Positions 1 through 22,621 of a stretch of DNA of 39,276 bases are shown here, piece after piece. This DNA is from an uncultured Kiloniellales bacterium (lineage in GTDB: Bacteria; Pseudomonadota; Alphaproteobacteria; Kiloniellales; JAKSDN01). Under the pieces are notes generated by a model that did not search any database, had not been told where the DNA came from, and saw only the letters and a program-made list of their open reading frames with translations. The stretch's first letter is position 1; the number at the start of each line of letters is the position of its first letter. Position numbers and translations under genes: made by a program. Where the stretch lies: positions 1 through 39,276 of the forward strand of contig CAMYKD010000115.1 of the NCBI GenBank assembly GCA_947258885.1. Direction: 5' to 3'.

Positions 1-121
1 CCAGGCCGGCGGCCACGGCCGCGCGCACCTGCGCCGCATCGCATCCACTCGGCACATCGTATTCCAGAAAGGTGTTGCAGGGCGGCCCTTCGACAAAGAT
101 CCCCTCTTGCGGCGCGCTCAC
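1..121 (-). CDS. Possible Dyp-type peroxidase, N-terminal fragment cut by the window edge
   Basis: About 40 N-terminal codons are visible before the window edge. The peptide begins VSAPQEGIFVEG and continues NTFLEYDVPSG. Its arrangement (a short polar start, Gln-x-Gly-Ile, then a hydrophobic strand) resembles the start of YfeX-like Dyp-type haem peroxidases, but no catalytic region is present, so the family call is weak. The start choice rests on the ribosome-binding site. GGGAGGA lies directly against an ATG at 127 but 7 bases before the GTG at 121, so GTG is preferred and ATG is the alternative. It is divergent from the solute-binding-protein gene to the right. Confidence 0.4.
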   Translation of the reverse strand, partial: MSAPQEGIFVEGPPCNTFLEYDVPSGCDAAQVRAAVAAGL

Positions 122-223
122 GGACATTCCTCCCGGTTGGCTGACGGCAGCTCCGATGATGCAGAATTCCAGGAGCAGAGACAATCGCCGGCGCATCGGA
201 ACCGAAGGGTGACGCGATGACGG

Positions 224-1243
224 ATGGCCCTAGAGCGGCAAATTATCGTGCTTCTTCCACGGGTTTTCGAGCTGCTTGTCGCGCAGCATGGCGAGGGCGT
301 TGCAGAGGCGCCGTCTTCACCCTGGGCGCTTTCGCCCCGCGTCCTGGGCCTGGCCCAGGACGCGGGGCACGGCAAGGACTACCGCACCTTCCACGCCGAC
401 GGGCGGATCGACTACGGCAAGATCGGCGACTCCTACACGGCCCAGCTGGTGCTCTATCTGGCGGGCAACCAGTTCATGGTCATGGAAGAGCTGATCCGCG
501 ACTTCCAGGCCAAGCATCCCGAGGTCTCTACCGTCTATGTCGAGACGATACCGCCGGGGCAGATCCTCAAGGGCCAGATCCTCAAGCAGGGCCAGATCGA
601 CGGCCAGGACACGGCGCAGAACCCCGACGTCTACGCCAGCGTCAACTTGAGTCACCTCAAGACGCTGAAGAGCAAGGGCTTGATGGACCAGTACATGATC
701 TACATCCACAACAAGCTCGAGCTGATGGTCGCGCAAGGCAACCCTAAGGGCATCCTGGGCGCCAAGGACCTGGCGCGCGACGACCTGGTGCACTCCCACC
801 CCAACCCGCTGACCGAAGGCATCTTCAAGTTCTACGGCGCGGCCATGCTGCGCGATCTGGGGCTCTACGAGCAGGTCACCGGCAACGCGGAGTGCCGCGG
901 CTGCTGGGCGATCGAGGGCAAGACCTGGTTCACCAACCGCCACCACCGCGAGACCCCCGACCGGATCGAGAAAGGCGAGGCCGACGTCGGCATCGTCTGG
1001 ACCACCGAGGTGGTCGAGGCCAGAAAGCACGGCCGCAGGATCGACGGCGTGGCGATCGCCGCGCCGCTCAACAAGGCGGGCGAGGTCGGCTATGCGATCG
1101 GCCGGCTCGAGACCGGGCGCAACCCGGCCAACGGCAGGGCCTACCTCGACTACCTGGCGAGCGACGCGGCGCAGAAGATCTATGCCGAGTACGGCTTCGT
1201 CAACGCGACGGAGGAGGAGCTGAAGCTCAGGCCGATTCCATAA
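224..1243 (+). CDS. ModA-like periplasmic solute-binding protein, 5' end replaced (probably broken)
   Basis: From about residue 48 the protein resembles type-2 periplasmic binding proteins of the molybdate/tungstate kind. It has a LAGNQFMVMEELIRDF lobe, an LMVAQGNPKGI crossover strand, a PNPLTEGIFKFYG ligand-loop motif and a C-terminal helical part ending in YGFVNATEEEL. Such proteins bind a ligand in the periplasm for an ABC transporter, and no transporter subunits are nearby. The first 30 or so codons of the ORF are the antisense strand of the pccB 3' fragment (230-313). No normal Sec signal peptide is visible, so the native 5' end appears to have been lost. If translated from 224 the product would stay in the cytoplasm. 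It is convergent with the chemotaxis receptor gene. The ligand cannot be read from the sequence. Confidence 0.65.
   Translation: MALERQIIVLLPRVFELLVAQHGEGVAEAPSSPWALSPRVLGLAQDAGHGKDYRTFHADGRIDYGKIGDSYTAQLVLYLAGNQFMVMEELIRDFQAKHPEVSTVYVETIPPGQILKGQILKQGQIDGQDTAQNPDVYASVNLSHLKTLKSKGLMDQYMIYIHNKLELMVAQGNPKGILGAKDLARDDLVHSHPNPLTEGIFKFYGAAMLRDLGLYEQVTGNAECRGCWAIEGKTWFTNRHHRETPDRIEKGEADVGIVWTTEVVEARKHGRRIDGVAIAAPLNKAGEVGYAIGRLETGRNPANGRAYLDYLASDAAQKIYAEYGFVNATEEELKLRPIP
230..313 (-). repeat. pccB 3'-end fragment, copy A
   Basis: This 84-base stretch matches the last 27 sense codons plus stop of the intact pccB (5894-5977) with 7 mismatches. Read on the minus strand it encodes the same 27 amino acids as pccB, ending KKHDNLPL and a TAG stop. 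All seven differences are synonymous (for example TTG for CTA, AAT for AAC, GAA for GAG). Similarity stops abruptly at 313/314, where the sequence becomes the 5' part of the solute-binding-protein ORF on the other strand. The silent divergence implies that the fragment came from a functional but different pccB allele or species rather than from a recent copy of the local gene. Confidence 0.93.
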
Positions 1244-1263
1244 CCTCGGGTCCAAGCGAGGTT
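1242..1263 (+). terminator. Hairpin after the solute-binding-protein gene
   Basis: A perfect 7-bp stem (AACCTCG/CGAGGTT) with an 8-base loop starts inside the TAA stop codon. A GC-rich weaker hairpin follows. There is no U-tract, so intrinsic termination is plausible but not proven. It lies in the 78-bp gap between two convergent genes. Confidence 0.35.
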
Positions 1264-1321
1264 CCGGTGCGCCGGCGTTCGGATGCCGGGGACGCCGGGT
1301 GCAAGACGATGTCTCGGCGGG

Positions 1322-3598
1322 TCACATGGCCCGGACTTCGGTCAGGAACCTGCCCATCTCGCGGTGCAGGACCTCGGACTGCTCGGTCAGCTGCCTGGCG
1401 GCCTCCAACACACGGTGGCCCAGCTGCCCGGTTTCGCCCGCCGTCTGGGATACGCCGACGATGGTCGAATTCACCTCGTCGGTCCCCCGCGCCGCCTTTT
1501 GCACGTTCTGGGCGATCTCGCGGGTTGCCACGCCCTGTTCCTCCACCGCCGAAGACACGTGCTCGGAGATGTCGTTGAGCTCAACGATGGTAGCGGAAAT
1601 GTGCTGTATCGCGTTGACTGCATTGCCAGTAGCGGACTGCATTGAGCTCACTTGAGAGGAAATCTCTTTGGTCGCCTCCCCTGTCTGGTTGGCCAGGCTC
1701 TTCACCTCAGCAGCAACGACCGCAAAGCCTTTGCCGGCCTCGCCGGCCCGCGCTGCTTCGATTGTGGCGTTCAGCGCCAGCAGGTTGGTCTGCTCGGCGA
1801 TGTCGTTGATCAGACCGACGACCTCGCCGATCTTCTCGGCCGCGTGGGCCAAGCCCTCGACAGTGGTGTTGGTGTTATCGGTTTCCTGCACTGCGCGCGC
1901 AGCAATCGTGGCGGATTTCTCCCCCTCTCGGCCGATCGCATCGACGGACTTCGCCATCTGGTCGGCCGCGGCGGCCACAGACTGCACGTTTGCCGAGGCC
2001 TGCTGCGACGCCGACAATACCGTGTCCGCCTGCTGCCTGGTCTGATCCGCGGTCGCAGACATGGCCTGGGCAGTGGATTCCATCTCGGCCGCCGCCGAAC
2101 GAACGGCCTCGACCACGCTGCCGACGCTTCCTTGGAGCGAGTCCGCGAGGGCGGTCAGCGCTTTTCGCCTCTCCTTTTGGGCGCGCTCCTCGGCCCGGCG
2201 TTCGGCTTCCAGCTGTTTTTGGTCTTCCTCTCGCCGCTCCTGCTCGCGCCGCTCCTGCTCGCGCTTGCGCTCCAGCTCTGCCTGTTCCGTCTTGCGATGC
2301 TCCTCGGCCTCGCGGCGGCGGTCGAGCTCGGCCTGTCGCATCTTCTCCTCGGCCATGTGCCGCATGTCGATCTGGGCTACCCGGAAGCTGTCGATGGAGA
2401 GCCTGATCGCCTCGAACTCGCGCAGCCGTGTTGCCGGCATATGAGCCTTGACATCGCCCTGACTCAGGAGGTCGAGCGCCCGGCTTGCGTACACCAAGGG
2501 CACGAAGATCGCGCGCCGGCCGACCGCCATCAGGAACAGAAGACAGGCCGCGAGGAAGCCGAAGGCGCCGAACACTGTCCACTGCACAACCGTCGTTTCG
2601 TCGGCGATTCTCTTGACGCTTTCGCTCGCCAGCTTCGCCGCGTCTGAGGACAGGGATGCCGCGACCTCGGTGAGCACCGCCCTCGCCTGCTGGCTCGCCA
2701 CCTCCGCGTTCTCCTGCTCGGCCAGGAACGCCGCCCGCTGTTCGAAAACGCTGGCCAGGGCCAAGAACTCCTCGACGAGTGGCGGCAGGTACTCGTAGTC
2801 ACCGCCACCCGGCAGCGCGCCGACCCGGGCTTCGAGCAACTTCGACAGGGCCGCGAAGCGCTCGGCAGTAGATTTCAAATCCTCGCTGTCGGTCACCGTC
2901 ACTGCGACCACGAGGTGGGCCCGGCTCTTGCGCAGGATACCGAGCAGATTGCTGCTGGCCGTGCGTATGCGTAAGTTGGCCGCGAAGTCGTGCTGCAGCC
3001 TGCCGAGCTCGTTTTGCGAGGCCTGGTCGAGGCCCTCGATCATCTCTTCCAAGCGTGATCCCGAATCCTCGGCGATCGAGCCGAGATTTTCGTCGATTTC
3101 CCGAATCAGCGCGCCGGCGCGGTCGAGCTGTCCGGCCGTCTGGGTCTCCAACGTGTCGGCAGCCTCGGCATGAGTCGTGGCCTTGCGAAGGAGCTGAAGC
3201 GCCTGTTCGACGTGGGTGCGCTGGGCCGTCTCGAGCTCGCCGGTCAGATTGGCAGCAAGCTCGACCGCCTGGCTGAGAATCCGATTCCGATTCTCAGTGC
3301 CCCGTGCGACGAGAATCTGCTGGGCGAACCGGATCATGCGTTCGGTTGCCAGGGCCTGACGCTGTTGCGTGACCGAGTGGGGAATGGCCTCGGTCTGTGT
3401 CCGGTTGGCGAGCTCTTGAATGCCGAACAGCCGCAAGCCGCTGATCGCGGCCACGGCCGCGAAGACGAAGACGAACATGGCACAGACGACCGCCGCGGTG
3501 CGGGACAACCGGATGCCTCGCGGCACCGAGCGTTGTGCCGATTGCTGGGATGTCTCGGTGTCAGGCTGTGTCGCTGCGCCCCGATTGGCCGATGGCAT
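1322..3598 (-). CDS. Methyl-accepting chemotaxis protein
   Basis: This is a membrane chemoreceptor that would control CheA/CheW signalling. Its order is: a short cytoplasmic N-terminus; TM1 at about residues 35-57; a helical periplasmic sensing region of about 280 residues without a recognisable PAS or Cache motif; TM2 at about 337-362; HAMP; and a long charged linker (about 415-480) rich in Glu, Arg and Gln. The signalling domain follows, with the conserved hairpin tip [20 protein letters not shown] and then [15 protein letters not shown] (about 590-640). There is no C-terminal CheR-binding pentapeptide; the protein ends FLTEVRAM. The ATG at 3598 is preferred because AGGG lies 8 bases upstream; an in-frame GTG at 3607 is the alternative. 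It follows the haem-domain gene on the same strand after a 60-70-bp gap containing a strong hairpin, so the two may be co-transcribed. Confidence 0.93.
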
Positions 3599-3629
3599 GG
3601 GAGTCACCCTGGCGGCTGAACCGGATAGT

Positions 3630-3660
3630 GCGGGAGGCCGGCGAGCGCGCGGCCTCCCGC
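3630..3660 (-). terminator. Intercistronic hairpin between the haem-domain gene and the chemoreceptor gene
   Basis: A perfect 10-bp GC-rich stem (GCGGGAGGCC/GGCCTCCCGC) with an 11-base loop lies just after the stop codon of the upstream gene and before the receptor start. No run of T follows. It may terminate transcription partially or stabilise the upstream message, which would make the two genes differently expressed. Confidence 0.5.
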
Positions 3661-3668
3661 TCGAAGGT

Positions 3669-4568
3669 TCAGGACGAGTTGCTCTGGGTCTTCAAGACGA
3701 GCTTCTCGGAGACGCTGTGCTTTGCGCCGCCGACTGAGTCGAACGCCGCGATCGAGATCTCGATCGACCCCGAGGCCGGGATCACCGCGTCATCCGAGTT
3801 GCCGGTGTCGAGCTTGCGCGCGAGCTCGAGATACCAACGGCCGTCGCGCCAGACGCCCTTGGCCTTGACGTCGGCGATGCTACCGCTGGGGCTCATATTG
3901 ACCTCGTATCGCGGCATCACATCGCCCTGCTTGACGTCGTACTTGACCGGCTTGTACAGGCGGTCCCCGGCGTCGCTGGGGCGGGCGATATAGAGCGGGC
4001 GTCCGTCCGTGGTCTTCAGCTCGCGACCCTGTTCGTCAACGGCCTTGCCCTTCTCGAAGGGCTTCAGGGAAACCTTCCACATCTTGTCGTGCGCGACGCC
4101 CGCCGGGTTGGAGCGCGACGCCTTCCAGTGCCACACGTCGGCCACGAACTCGCTGCCATCCGTCTTGTCGTGCGAGAAACTCCCCGACATCCTGAGCGAG
4201 ATCGCCAAGCGGTCCTCCATCCGTTTCAGCTTCTTGTAGGACTGGCTGGCCTCGTCCCAGCCATAGGGCTTGTGTAGGATGTCTTCGGTGGAATCGACCC
4301 AAACGGCCAACATGTAAATGGTATCGCCCCGTACGACAGCTTTGATTTCGACGGCGTCGACGCCGCCTTGCCCCGTGAGCGGCACAGTGATGCCGGAGAT
4401 GCCGTTCCAATCAGAAGTATTGCCATCGAGCGTGATGGGGTCGCTCGCGGCATTGGCTTGGAGCGTGGCCTCGGCCGTCGCGGCCGGCGCAGCGAACACG
4501 ATGCCGGCCAGCGGAACGGCTAAAACAGTCAGGTGCTTAAGCAGACCGAGGTTGTTCGGAATGGTCAT
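3669..4568 (-). CDS. Exported ethylbenzene-dehydrogenase-type haem-binding domain protein (intact paralogue)
   Basis: This 299-residue protein has a Sec signal peptide (hydrophobic core about residues 12-28, likely cleavage after Ala-Thr-Ala at 32). A single beta-rich domain follows, of the ethylbenzene dehydrogenase gamma/cytochrome c-552-like haem-binding family. Visible family features are an [13 protein letters not shown] start, a [16 protein letters not shown] strand pair, an [12 protein letters not shown] segment and a DVWHWKASR motif. Family members bind b-type haem in the periplasm and pass electrons for molybdenum enzymes of the DMSO reductase family, but no such enzyme gene is in the window. 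The haem ligands cannot be assigned with certainty. GAGAGGA precedes the start. The upstream 293 bp is AT-rich over its first part and probably holds the promoter. A truncated paralogue lies at 4862-5572. Confidence 0.75.
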
Positions 4569-4861
4569 GATTGATGCAGTCCTCTCGTGAATCTGCGGGG
4601 AAGCGTAGGCGTAACATCTTTGATACGTAGTCCTTAAAAACTATCAAATCATTAAAACACGATTAGTCGTTCTCTACTATATCTAATCCACAGCTAGGTT
4701 GTGGTCTTTAGGTTTGTCGCAACAGCCGCTCTCCAACTTGGCAAATCTTGTGTCCCCTCGCCCGCACATGCGCAGCCGCTGCCCTGGACCGATAGGCCGC
4801 AATATCCCCGAGTAGCGGCCAGTCATATTCGGTTCGAGGGTGACGCTCAGGGCTCTGCGAA

Positions 4862-4915
4862 TTAGAGCGGCAGGTTGTCGTGCTTCTTCCAGGGATTCTC
4901 GAGCTGCTTGTCCCG
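4862..4915 (-). repeat. pccB 3'-end fragment, copy B
   Basis: These 54 bases match the pccB 3' end with 6 mismatches. They encode the same last residues (R, then [16 protein letters not shown]), and even the stop codon is a silent change (TAA for TAG). Upstream of this, similarity switches to the haem-domain gene at a short shared stretch (ATGCCGCGG against ATGCTGCGC). Copies A and B also share AGGGTGACGC 14-15 bases beyond their stop codons (206-215 and 4837-4846); the intact pccB lacks this, so A and B may share an origin. Confidence 0.92.
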
Positions 4916-5572
4916 CGGCATTACGTCGCCCTGTTTGACATCGTACTTGACCGGCTTGTACAGGCGGGGTCCGGCGTCGCTCGGGCGGGCGATATGGAGC
5001 GTCCGTCCGTCGGGAGTCTTCAGGTCGCGGCCCTTCTCGTCGACGTTCTTGTCCTTCTCGAAGGCCTTCAGGGAAACCTTCCACATCTTGTCGTGCGCGC
5101 CGCCGGCCGGGTTCGAGCGCGCCGCCTTCCAGTGCCACACGTCGGCCACGAACTCGCTGCCGTCCATCTTGTTCTCGGAGAAGTTCCCGGACATCCCGGG
5201 CGAGTTCGCCAGGCGGTCCTCCTTGTTCTTCCGCTTCTTATGGGACTGGCTGGCCTCGTCCCGGCGGTCGGGCTTGTGCTGCATGTCCTCCGTGGGATCG
5301 TCCCAGACGGCGAGTACATTAATGGAGTCGCCCCGCACCGCGGTCCGGAGCTCGACGGCAGCAACGCCGCCATCGCCGGCGAGCGGCGCCGTGATGCCGG
5401 ACACGCCGTCCCAGTCGGAGATAATACCATCGAGCGCCATGGGAGCGCCCGCCGCGGCAGCCTGGAGAGTGGCCTCGGCCCGGGCCGTAGGCGCAGTGCA
5501 CGCGATGCCGGCCAAAACGGCGGCCAAAACGGCCGCGCCTTGCAGCAGGCCGGAGTCCTTCAATTTGGTCAT
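4862..5572 (-). CDS. Truncated haem-binding-domain paralogue fused to a PccB tail
   Basis: Residues 1-220 are clearly paralogous to the intact 299-residue neighbour. They include the signal peptide of the same length (cleavage after Ala-Arg-Ala at about 32), the MALDGIISDWDGVSGI start, the DVWHWKAARSNPAG motif and the [15 protein letters not shown] segment. The neighbour then continues for some 75 residues of domain core. This ORF instead joins in frame to the last 16 residues of PccB and stops. The C-terminal strands of the haem domain are therefore missing, and the protein probably cannot fold like its paralogue. It is best regarded as a recombinant pseudogene, although it still has an open frame, a signal peptide and an AT-rich promoter region. 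The start used is the ATG at 5572. A duplicated start region lies immediately upstream. Confidence 0.7.
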   Translation of the reverse strand: MTKLKDSGLLQGAAVLAAVLAGIACTAPTARAEATLQAAAAGAPMALDGIISDWDGVSGITAPLAGDGGVAAVELRTAVRGDSINVLAVWDDPTEDMQHKPDRRDEASQSHKKRKNKEDRLANSPGMSGNFSENKMDGSEFVADVWHWKAARSNPAGGAHDKMWKVSLKAFEKDKNVDEKGRDLKTPDGRTLHIARPSDAGPRLYKPVKYDVKQGDVMPRDKQLENPWKKHDNLPL

Positions 5573-5620
5573 GGCTGATGAATTCTTCTCGCTTTTTAGT
5601 CATAGCTGATGAATTCCTCC
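5567..5620 (-). repeat. Duplicated start region of the truncated paralogue
   Basis: Two 23-bp units (5567-5589 and 5598-5620, offset 31 bp, 4 mismatches) each contain a start codon and its GAATTCATCAGC leader. The distal unit carries the better ribosome-binding sequence (GGAGG), but its ATG at 5603 opens a different frame, because 31 is not a multiple of three. Only the proximal ATG at 5572 gives the exported protein. Confidence 0.8.
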
Positions 5621-5702
5621 AGTATTTGCACAACGTAAAGGTCGCGAATCGTTCGCAGAAAATAACATCCGACTATTACCATCTAGTAAAAACAATCTAG
5701 CT

Positions 5703-5708
5703 ATTATA
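5703..5708 (-). promoter_or_regulatory. Candidate -10 element upstream of the truncated paralogue
   Basis: A perfect TATAAT on the minus strand lies in a markedly AT-rich stretch (about 5640-5715) in an otherwise GC-rich region, about 130 bases before the start codon. No convincing -35 hexamer is seen at 16-18 bases. Short CTAGAT repeats surround it. Confidence 0.3.
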
Positions 5709-5893
5709 GATGTATCCAATCTTTGTTGCATGTCAGGCGTCGTTCGGGCGCCACCCGAGCCCCGGCCGGACCGGCCTTAATCCATACTTTTCTTATGGAA
5801 ATGCGTGGAACCGCGATTGCGCCGCCTGTGCCGCAGCCCGTTCCGGGGGCGAGCGGCGACCCGCGGTTCGCGGAAGGCGCCCTTCGCCACCCA

Positions 5894-7426
<1,533 letters not shown>

Positions 7427-7646
7427 GGCCGCCCCCTGCCAACCGGTCCAAGTCTTGGCCCTAGCTGATAGCACGCGCGCGCCAGACGCGCCAGACGGCG
7501 GCAGGCCGCGAAGCCACGGTGTCGCTGGGCCCCACTTCGTGCTATCGTCGATTTTGCCCGGACGGCAGCCTGCAAATCTCGATTGAGGTCTCTTGCCGGG
7601 GCGTTGCCGGGGGCGGCGTGGCGGTCAGGCCACGAACGAGGGGGAT

Positions 7647-9547
7647 ATGAGGAAGGTCCGGAGAGATCGGCCCGTTCGCCGCTGCGCAGAAGCGTTCGGC
7701 AGGCGAGCGCGTCTGGCATCTTGGCTTCTGGCCGGCGTCCTGACCGCTTGCGCGAGCCCGCACTATCCGGTGCTGGACGAAGACGACGCCGACTACAAGG
7801 CGCACATGGAACTTGTCAGGCGCTGCGCCTTCGGCGGGCAAGACACCGGCCCCTACCCGGGCTATGCCGTCGAGAACCATATCCTGGAAGCCTCCGAACA
7901 GGGTGCCGTCGTCTACCGTGCAAAGGGCGGGGCCCGGAACCAGTTCCGCCCGAATTTCCTGCGGATCTTCTCTTGCTATCGGAAATTCCTCGCATGGAAG
8001 AAGGACGCCGGATGGGACGATACGACTCCCGGACAGGTTCTCATCTATTTCAATGGCGGTTTGAACTCGGCCGACGTCCTGCACGAACAAGCCGCCGTGC
8101 AGGTGCCGCGCATGCTCGAGGACGGCTACTACCCGATTTTCCTCGCCTGGCCGACCGGTGCCTTGGACACCTACCTCGAACAGATCGCCTTCGTGCGGAA
8201 TGGAACCCGTCACAGCAGCCCACAGTACCTGAGCGCGCCGCTCTATCTGCTCGGTGATATCGGTCAGGGCCTGGTCAGGGCGCCGGTCAACTATCTGAAT
8301 CAGCTTCAGCGCTTCGTCTCGGCCAAGAATCCCTTCGACGATTCGGACAAGCGGGAGTTCTTTCTGACCAGGGCCGCGGAGATCTGTCGAGACGCCGAGC
8401 CCGCGGAGGACGGCGGCACGGGACACGCGGCGGCATCCGAAAACAAAGTCTGCGAAGAGACGGACGTGGACAAGTTCGGCATCGCGAACTGCGAGGTGAC
8501 CGCCGAGAAGAACCTCCTGACGGGGCAGGCCCCCGACCAGAACCCCGGCCCGTCGCTGCTCAGCGTTCCCTACTACGGGCTCCTTCCCGTGCGTTTCGTT
8601 GCCACGCCGTTGGTGGACGCCTTCGGCAAGACGATGTGGGAGAACATGGTGCGGCGCACCCGAACCACCGTTCGCAGCCCCGTCGAGTACAACATTCACC
8701 TGGTCGACGATTTCAAGCCCCGTGAGATCAGCGCCATAGAGCACGACAAGCGGCGCTTTCCCAACGGCATCGGCGCCTTCGCCCGCTTCTTCACCATGCT
8801 GCAATACTGCATCGACGGGGACGGGGACGACGGCAAAGGCGCCGCCGCCGGAAGGGCCTGCTATCCGGAGGTGGACCAGGCCCTGCGCAACAGCTGGCGC
8901 AACGTCGAACTGACGATCATAGGACACAGCATGGGCTCGATCGTGATGAACGAACTGATCCCAGCGCATCCGGACCTGCCGTACAGAAACCTCGTCTTCA
9001 TGGCGGCGGCGGCCAGCGTCCGCGAAACGGGCCCTGCCCGCGCGGCGATTGCGGCGACAAGGCGCCGAACGGGCCCGCCCGGGCGCCGCTTCGATTCTAC
9101 AATCTGATGCTCCATCCCCGAAACGACGCGCTCGAGCTCGAGTCTTTCGGGGCCCTGCCCTCGGGCAGCTTGCTCGAGTGGGTGGACGAGATGTTCGAAG
9201 GACCCAAGACGGTGATCGACCGTACCATGGGAAAATGGCGCAACCTGCGGGCCACCAAGCACGTCTTCCCCAGAGAGGCGCAGGAAAACATGCTGTTTCG
9301 CGTCTTCAGCTGGGACGACGCCTGGTCGAGCAACCAGGTTCCCAAAACTGCCTGCGACCAAGCCCCCTCCGGCGGCGCCTCCCAGGCGAGTGAACGGCAA
9401 TTCAAGCCCCCGACGACCCACGGCGCATTCAACGATAACCGCGCGCGTTTCTGGTGCCCGTACTTCTGGGGCGCCGACACGGTCGGCTGGTGGCGAGGCG
9501 AAAGCGATTGGAACCCCGGGCTCTGCGGGACCGGGGCCGGTTCCTAG
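7647..9547 (+). pseudogene. Alpha/beta-hydrolase lipoprotein, frameshifted near 9020-9045
   Basis: The reading frame begins at the ATG at 7647 after GAGGGGG. It encodes an Arg-rich start, a hydrophobic stretch and the lipobox LTAC with Cys35, so the product should be a lipid-anchored envelope protein. A large N-terminal domain follows, with an IYFNGGLNSAD strand. A GHSMG nucleophile elbow (Ser428) marks an alpha/beta hydrolase, perhaps lipase-like. The frame then runs into low-quality residues and stops at 9107. The natural continuation (APLRFYNLMLHPRND, GSLLEWVDEMFEG, and a Trp-rich C-terminus) is in another frame from about 9041 to 9547. One base appears to be missing (or two inserted). This is either a real inactivating mutation or a sequencing error in GC-rich DNA. 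The substrate is unknown. It is divergent from pccB. Confidence 0.75.
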
Positions 9548-22541: not shown

Positions 22542-22621
22542 GTTGGTAGACTGGCCGCGGTGAAGGAAGGCAGCCGGACCAGTTGGTAGACTGGCCGCGG
22601 TGAAGGAAGGCAGCCGGACCA
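22542..22621 (+). repeat. Exact 40-bp tandem duplication of the spermidine-synthase leader
   Basis: Two identical 40-bp units (22542-22581 and 22582-22621) each carry GAAGGAAGG, the probable ribosome-binding sequence. The second unit ends at the A of the start codon, so only it is correctly placed for translation. The repeat is exact, indicating a recent event or an assembly artefact. Confidence 0.9.

Follow-up and report, generated by a model that had tools for sequence, protein, structure and literature searches.

Read along the minus strand, the start of the window (the whole stretch of DNA analysed here, 39,276 nucleotides of contig C115 from an uncultured Kiloniellales bacterium) carries pccB, a first spacer, a chimaeric reading frame, a second spacer, a full-length haem gene, a methyl-accepting chemotaxis protein (MCP) gene, an inverted SBP gene, a displaced pccB 3′ end and the beginning of a dyp-type peroxidase gene. 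The genome (G000) is a draft of 236 contigs with a contamination estimate of 1.99%, and the window begins at a contig end. Its features are listed below, with G001 and G002 denoting two congeners; the name EB_dh haem protein stands for a sequence match to that family, which binds haem.

5894–7474, minus strand: pccB, propionyl-CoA carboxylase beta subunit, intact (PF01039, E = 1.2e-199)
5894–5977, minus strand: tail C, the 3′ end of the intact pccB
5573–5893, minus strand: spacer 1, from pccB to the chimaera; about 70% identical to the G001 spacer, with an extra copy of a 31-nt tandem duplication
4862–5572, minus strand: chimaeric ORF, 236 aa
4913–5572, minus strand: haem-domain (EB_dh) part of the chimaera, residues 1–220; N-terminus signal-peptide-like as judged by eye
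4913–4921, minus strand: junction B zone ATGCCGCGG, from haem gene to pccB tail
4862–4912, minus strand: tail B, the end of a pccB comprising its final 16 codons plus the stop, which is TAA vs TAG
4569–4861, minus strand: spacer 2, from tail B to the full-length haem gene; no relationship to spacer 1 or to the spacer of G001
3669–4568, minus strand: full-length EB_dh haem-domain protein, 299 aa (PF09459, E = 1.5e-24)
1322–3607, minus strand: MCP gene (PF00015), adjoining the haem gene as in G001
314–1243, plus strand: SBP gene lacking the native start and signal peptide (PF13531); 90.9% to the G002 gene
334–368, no strand: perfect inverted repeat of 17 nt (loop of 1 nt), within the part of SBP that corresponds to the signal peptide
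307–313, no strand: junction A microhomology CGGCGCC (pccB-sense strand), common to SBP and pccB
230–313, minus strand: tail A, the displaced end of a pccB, 28 codons long with the stop; 92% to pccB over 84 nt
1–123, minus strand: beginning of the dyp-type peroxidase gene, truncated where the contig ends

Joints and displaced pccB 3′ ends

The initial annotation had described the ORF at 4862–5572 as an in-frame chimaera of a haem gene and the PccB C-terminus, and this holds. The frame has no internal stop, its last 16 residues are the exact C-terminus of the PccB encoded at 5894–7474 (minus strand), and the 59-nt match between this tail and pccB has E = 2.3e-16 in G000 and is therefore not due to chance. 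PccB itself shares 99.8–100% amino acid identity with the G001 protein. Residues through ...QGDVMPR align to the 299-aa ORF (3669–4568, minus strand), with 78.1% identity at the DNA level over 654 nt. A third pccB 3′ end, the 84 nt of tail A, had been missed.

At junction B the chimaera reads ATGCCGCGG|GAC, where pccB has ATGCTGCGCGAC and the full-length haem gene has ATGCCGCGATAC. Because the fifth base of ATGCCGCGG is haem-like, the sure overlap is short (GCG), and it extends to at most nine positions (ATGCyGCGn) with one or two mismatches. At junction A, tail A is joined to the truncated, inverted SBP gene within an exact 7 nt common to both genes. Illegitimate joining at a short similarity, proposed earlier for the chimaera, is thus supported at junction B, and a second joint of this kind lies nearby. 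The 17-nt inverted repeat lies 20 nt from junction A and has no counterpart at this position in either G001 or G002; one explanation would be fold-back copying near the joint. Elsewhere in the window, at 22542–22621, there is an exact 40-nt tandem duplication, with two identical copies and a length that is not a multiple of three.

Both displaced tails differ from the working gene at synonymous positions only: tail A by seven nucleotides in its 28 codons, and tail B by five in 51 nt (17 codons, stop included, a count that leaves out the codon in the junction zone). In simulations of dead DNA the chance of synonymous-only differences was 3e-5 for tail A (7.5e-5 with more transitions) and 3e-4 for tail B (7e-4 with more transitions; 1.8e-3 to 3.6e-3 without the stop codon). 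Given these low values the tails would have diverged mostly whilst they were the ends of working pccB genes, which suggests that the fragments come from such genes and not from local duplication. Tail A appears to mark the old pccB–dyp boundary, since dyp lies directly behind pccB in G002 and window positions 1–313 (dyp start, intergenic region and tail A) match the G002 boundary at 88.8%.

Additional tails are rare in related genomes. A tail match was found in six of the seven genomes searched in the family, with more than one match in the window's genome only, and in 34 of 61 genomes of the order (33 of the 60 others plus G000), again with more than one, namely three, in G000 only; at most 14 candidates were scored per genome in this survey. 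Across the class, 222 of 385 genomes had a match to a tail peptide of 27 residues; among the matches listed, each genome had one except G000 and G263 with three each, two of the places in G263 lying in open frames of 575 and 535 residues that are probably whole paralogues. A class-wide attachment site at the tail was considered and rejected on these counts. When the chimaera was searched against contigs of relatives, the best 80 of at least 475 relatives gave mainly PccB-tail matches, along with some that were weaker and somewhat longer (up to residues 146–236), and no second chimaera was recognised among these listed matches.

Divergence of the segments and arrangement in congeners

The two haem copies relate differently to the single G001 gene. 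At the DNA level this gene shares 88.1% identity with the haem part of the chimaera and, across the region compared, 83.9% with the full-length copy. Spacer 1 can be aligned with its G001 counterpart, whereas spacer 2 reached 44% in forced alignments with either of the two, and its only blastn matches were in loci cut from the window's own contig. Synonymous divergence (dS) from G001 was 0.24 for the haem part of the chimaera, 0.41 for the full-length haem gene and 0.50 for the MCP gene, compared with 0.148 for pccB, 0.175 for pccA, 0.143 for ORF 7593–9107, 0.113 for arsR, 0.076 for srpbcc, 0.216 for gfa, 0.097 for duf899, 0.108 for the 3′ part of dyp and 0.228 for SBP (a CBS-protein piece of 25 codons, dS 0.174, was left out as too short). 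The block comprising tail B, spacer 2, the haem gene and the MCP gene is thus probably of more distant origin than the 5′ part of the chimaera, and a pccB end probably came along with it, which would be why the hybrid has one; differences in rate between genes could explain part of the higher dS in haem and MCP, which is not by itself proof of foreign origin.

These comparisons change how the truncation is to be seen. The reading of one paralogue as cut stands as far as the truncation after VMPR is concerned, but it hides that the truncated copy is the closest to the congener's gene and that the full-length copy is the one that looks foreign. A simple break in one of two paralogues is not supported, as the spacers, the dS values and the synonymous-only tail differences point to different DNA sources. 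A simple tandem duplication of pccB tail, spacer and haem gene within G000 was likewise tried and rejected, with spacers that are unrelated and haem copies that relate differently to G001.

No donor of the block was recovered. In a sample of 385 genomes from the class, the 384 besides G000 gave no match to the full-length haem protein at E ≤ 1e-20, and 72,556 plasmid records gave none either; among 37 other relatives G001 alone matched it well, four further matches being weak (E 3e-8 to 6e-6) and confined to the C-terminal part. Against solved structures (E ≤ 1) its only matches were nitrite oxidoreductase subunit C (E = 0.012) and ethylbenzene dehydrogenase gamma (E = 0.94), and a structure prediction from three sequences had a mean pLDDT of 30.8 and was set aside.

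The initial annotation had suggested looking for a full-length version in relatives, and G001 does carry one full haem gene behind pccB. Its order is pccB, spacer, haem and MCP on one contig and MCP, dyp, SBP and pccA on a second; the two meet within the MCP gene, the first ending at residue 681 and the second starting at residue 686. There is no pccB tail before dyp in G001, where homology with G002 starts about 30 nt beyond the pccB stop; two different joints are seen behind the same haem–MCP module within one genus. In G002 (a contig of 6409 bases) the order is pccB, dyp, SBP and pccA, with a full-length SBP gene between dyp and pccA. The G002 pccB is read in two pieces (residues 1–309 and 336–510; positions 1004–1008 of locus L047), through a deletion, a frameshift or an assembly error. 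Between SBP and pccA of the same locus (about 3717–4045) lies a member of a repeat family that looks dispersed; its copies are numerous in G001 and G002, whilst for G000 and G004 two apiece are listed.

In the window's own genome, contig C168 opens within dyp, of which it holds the final 81 residues, and continues to pccA with no SBP gene between. Since C115 ends in dyp, the two contigs are apparently neighbours, with about 540 bases missing between them as estimated from G002. Elsewhere in the order the distance from pccB to pccA is about 20 bp (G007, G021), 50 bp (G015), 0.35 kb (G005), 0.64 kb (G014), 1.0 kb (G019), 2.2–2.7 kb (G004, G031, G037, G002) or 6.1 kb (G018), and this range across 11 other genomes indicates that the gap tolerates inserts; in G024 pccA was not found in the roughly 11 kb fetched beside pccB.

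Coding capacity of the hybrid frame

That an exported hybrid could still be made had been proposed from its intact frame; the frame is indeed kept, but the product is doubtful. The EB_dh match (PF09459) of the chimaera covers profile positions 21–148 of 236 and scores 31.3 bits, below the Pfam cut-off of 33.3, whilst that of the full-length neighbour covers positions 2–228 and scores 87.8 bits, above it; the chimaera lacks half of the haem domain. Furthermore, the 31-nt tandem duplication around its start (5564–5619) creates a second, out-of-frame ATG at 5601–5603, upstream of the hybrid and behind GGAGGA, a better Shine–Dalgarno-like sequence than the hybrid's own GAGAAGA (GAGAGGA in G001 and in the full-length copy). 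With half the haem domain gone and an out-of-frame ATG placed before it, the hybrid ORF is probably a relic or by-product of recombination and not a working protein.

A three-sequence parsimony count assigned 33 nonsynonymous and 22 synonymous changes to the chimaera branch, part of whose history may predate the truncation. The nonsynonymous share was 60% against a neutral expectation of 74% (P = 0.03), and 49% in the full-length copy; constraint on the chimaera may be relaxed, but the two branches (33N/22S vs 40N/42S) did not differ significantly (P = 0.22). The hybrid contains no stop, the chance of which is about 0.2 (55 changes at 2.8% each), weak evidence either way. Decay of the hybrid is suggested by these values, not demonstrated, and the hybrid would have lost its function. 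The SBP ORF (224–1243) starts inside the antisense of tail A (MALERQIIVLLPRVFELL...), having lost the native SBP start and signal peptide, and is a second accidental in-frame hybrid.

Origin of the arrangement

We favour, with somewhat more confidence than doubt, the reading that one-sided recombination displaced the pccB 3′ end serially. Twice, incoming DNA with a pccB 3′ region and the genes behind it would have entered the locus. At one end homologous recombination, most simply in pccB, would have left pccB intact with one 3′ end; at the other a microhomology joint would have been made to the resident pccB tail, shifting it outward to persist as a dead fragment. The first of these joints to be considered here, in an event of its own, would have placed SBP and tail A before dyp, and another event would have joined the truncated haem gene to tail B as the chimaera, whose frame would have been kept by chance (1 in 3) and which would now be decaying. 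For junction B the opposite polarity, with the homologous anchor in dyp–pccA and the left end joined illegitimately, would fit as well. Two events are the simplest reading and not a result, and their order, like the mechanism, is inferred. Merodiploid formation by transformation would be a possible route to a short duplication. Serial displacement would explain the three tails, the two microhomology joints, the intact pccB, the mixed divergence of the segments and the varied joints of the congeners. Against it count the missing donor, sought in class genomes, plasmid records and relatives, and the even identity of pccB to G001 (94–98% per 200-nt bin over 6000–7399), with no trace of a crossover. 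The draft state of the assembly and the position of the window's start at a contig end also weigh against it.

The same final order and the same joints would be reached from a larger duplication, or the single-crossover integration of a circle, giving a tandem pccB–haem/pccB′–haem′ from which microhomology deletions then removed the body of pccB′ and the end of the truncated haem gene. Circular intermediates have been proposed for Rhs tips (Jackson et al., 2009; PMC2935791). We consider this route unlikely, though not far-fetched: simple duplication within one genome is disfavoured by the unrelated spacers, by dS of 0.41–0.50 against 0.08–0.23 and by the synonymous-only tail differences, and G000 has only one pccB, its other PccB matches at E ≤ 1e-5 being a 37% paralogue (C97), a 26% match (C6) and tail A, and just two matches to the haem protein (E ≤ 0.001), both in the window.

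An assembly artefact, in which pieces of co-occurring strains were misjoined at the conserved pccB tail, would suit the number of contigs and the contamination estimate, and the tails differ as alleles of different strains would. The perfect 17-nt hairpin also adjoins junction A, and a hairpin beside a joint is a pattern known from amplification chimaeras too. We nevertheless judge a misjoin improbable. C115 ends in dyp and C168 leads from dyp to pccA, the arrangement expected from the gene order of G001 and G002; searches of the rest of the assembly found no second pccB or haem fragment, the window holds no N, and the joints share only about 3–9 nt, shorter than usual assembler overlaps. Site-specific integration by a tyrosine recombinase at the pccB 3′ end, with the tails as att-site copies, would give the intact gene with a replaced 3′ end, the older ends downstream and the synonymous-only differences, but is very improbable, as no integrase occurs among the five main ORFs scanned in 1–7474 (224–1243, 1322–3607, 3669–4568, 4862–5572 and 5894–7474), extra tails occur in only one of the 34 matching genomes of the order, and the three right-hand joints lie at three different places (51–60 and 77–84 nt from the stop in the window, about 30 nt beyond it in G001) with no common crossover core, which fits one-sided homology.

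Serial displacement has relatives among known systems, so that the type of event is known and the locus is new. In homology-facilitated illegitimate recombination (HFIR) one end is anchored by homology and the other joined illegitimately, foreign genes are gained, and the product as described includes a deletion (PMC3240628). The present locus shares the illegitimate joint at short microhomology (CGGCGCC at A; GCG to ATGCyGCGn at B). The truncated haem gene lacks its 3′ end and C168 has no SBP between dyp and pccA; depending on the polarity, these losses may or may not be deletions of the HFIR type, and the pccB tails are duplicated. The locus differs in that the recipient gene has been duplicated over a short length and the anchoring crossover is not visible, and the likeness is drawn from a genome and not from a cross. 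At rhs loci, sequential insertions behind the constant part are described as pushing old, dissociated 3′ ends downstream (PMC2935791). Dissociated 3′ ends of the anchor gene likewise stand in series here, tails B and A downstream of tail C; the anchor, however, is a housekeeping carboxyltransferase (PF01039) whose tails of 51–84 nt encode the same PccB peptide, whereas Rhs swaps variable tips. Orphan immunity arrays of the Vibrio T6SS are described as growing by repeated additions on one flank of a conserved anchor, older genes being shifted outward in a process proposed to be akin to HFIR (PMC5361080). One-sided successive addition beside a conserved anchor would be common to both, but no effector or immunity genes were recognised here and what has been displaced are gene tails with no function that is evident. 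Genomic islands inserted so as to replace a protein-coding gene's 3′ end also regenerate an intact gene and leave the displaced end at the far side; the pccB locus differs from them in the lack of an integrase among the five ORFs scanned, of a common core and of constant joints.

A tentative and rather doubtful extension is that the pccB–pccA gap serves neighbouring lineages as a cargo slot free of integrases, with the pccB 3′ end as the homology anchor for repeated loading; each load would then regenerate an intact pccB and leave the old tail as a scar. A literature search for pccB as an insertion site gave nothing relevant among the papers listed. For annotation, the locus cautions against taking every uninterrupted in-frame hybrid ORF for a gene. 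A constant housekeeping gene may, through its fossil tails, preserve a record of insertions that followed one another at a single site, and new genes flanked by orphaned 3′ ends of such genes would be a signature searchable in many genomes for estimating one-sided recombination in nature.
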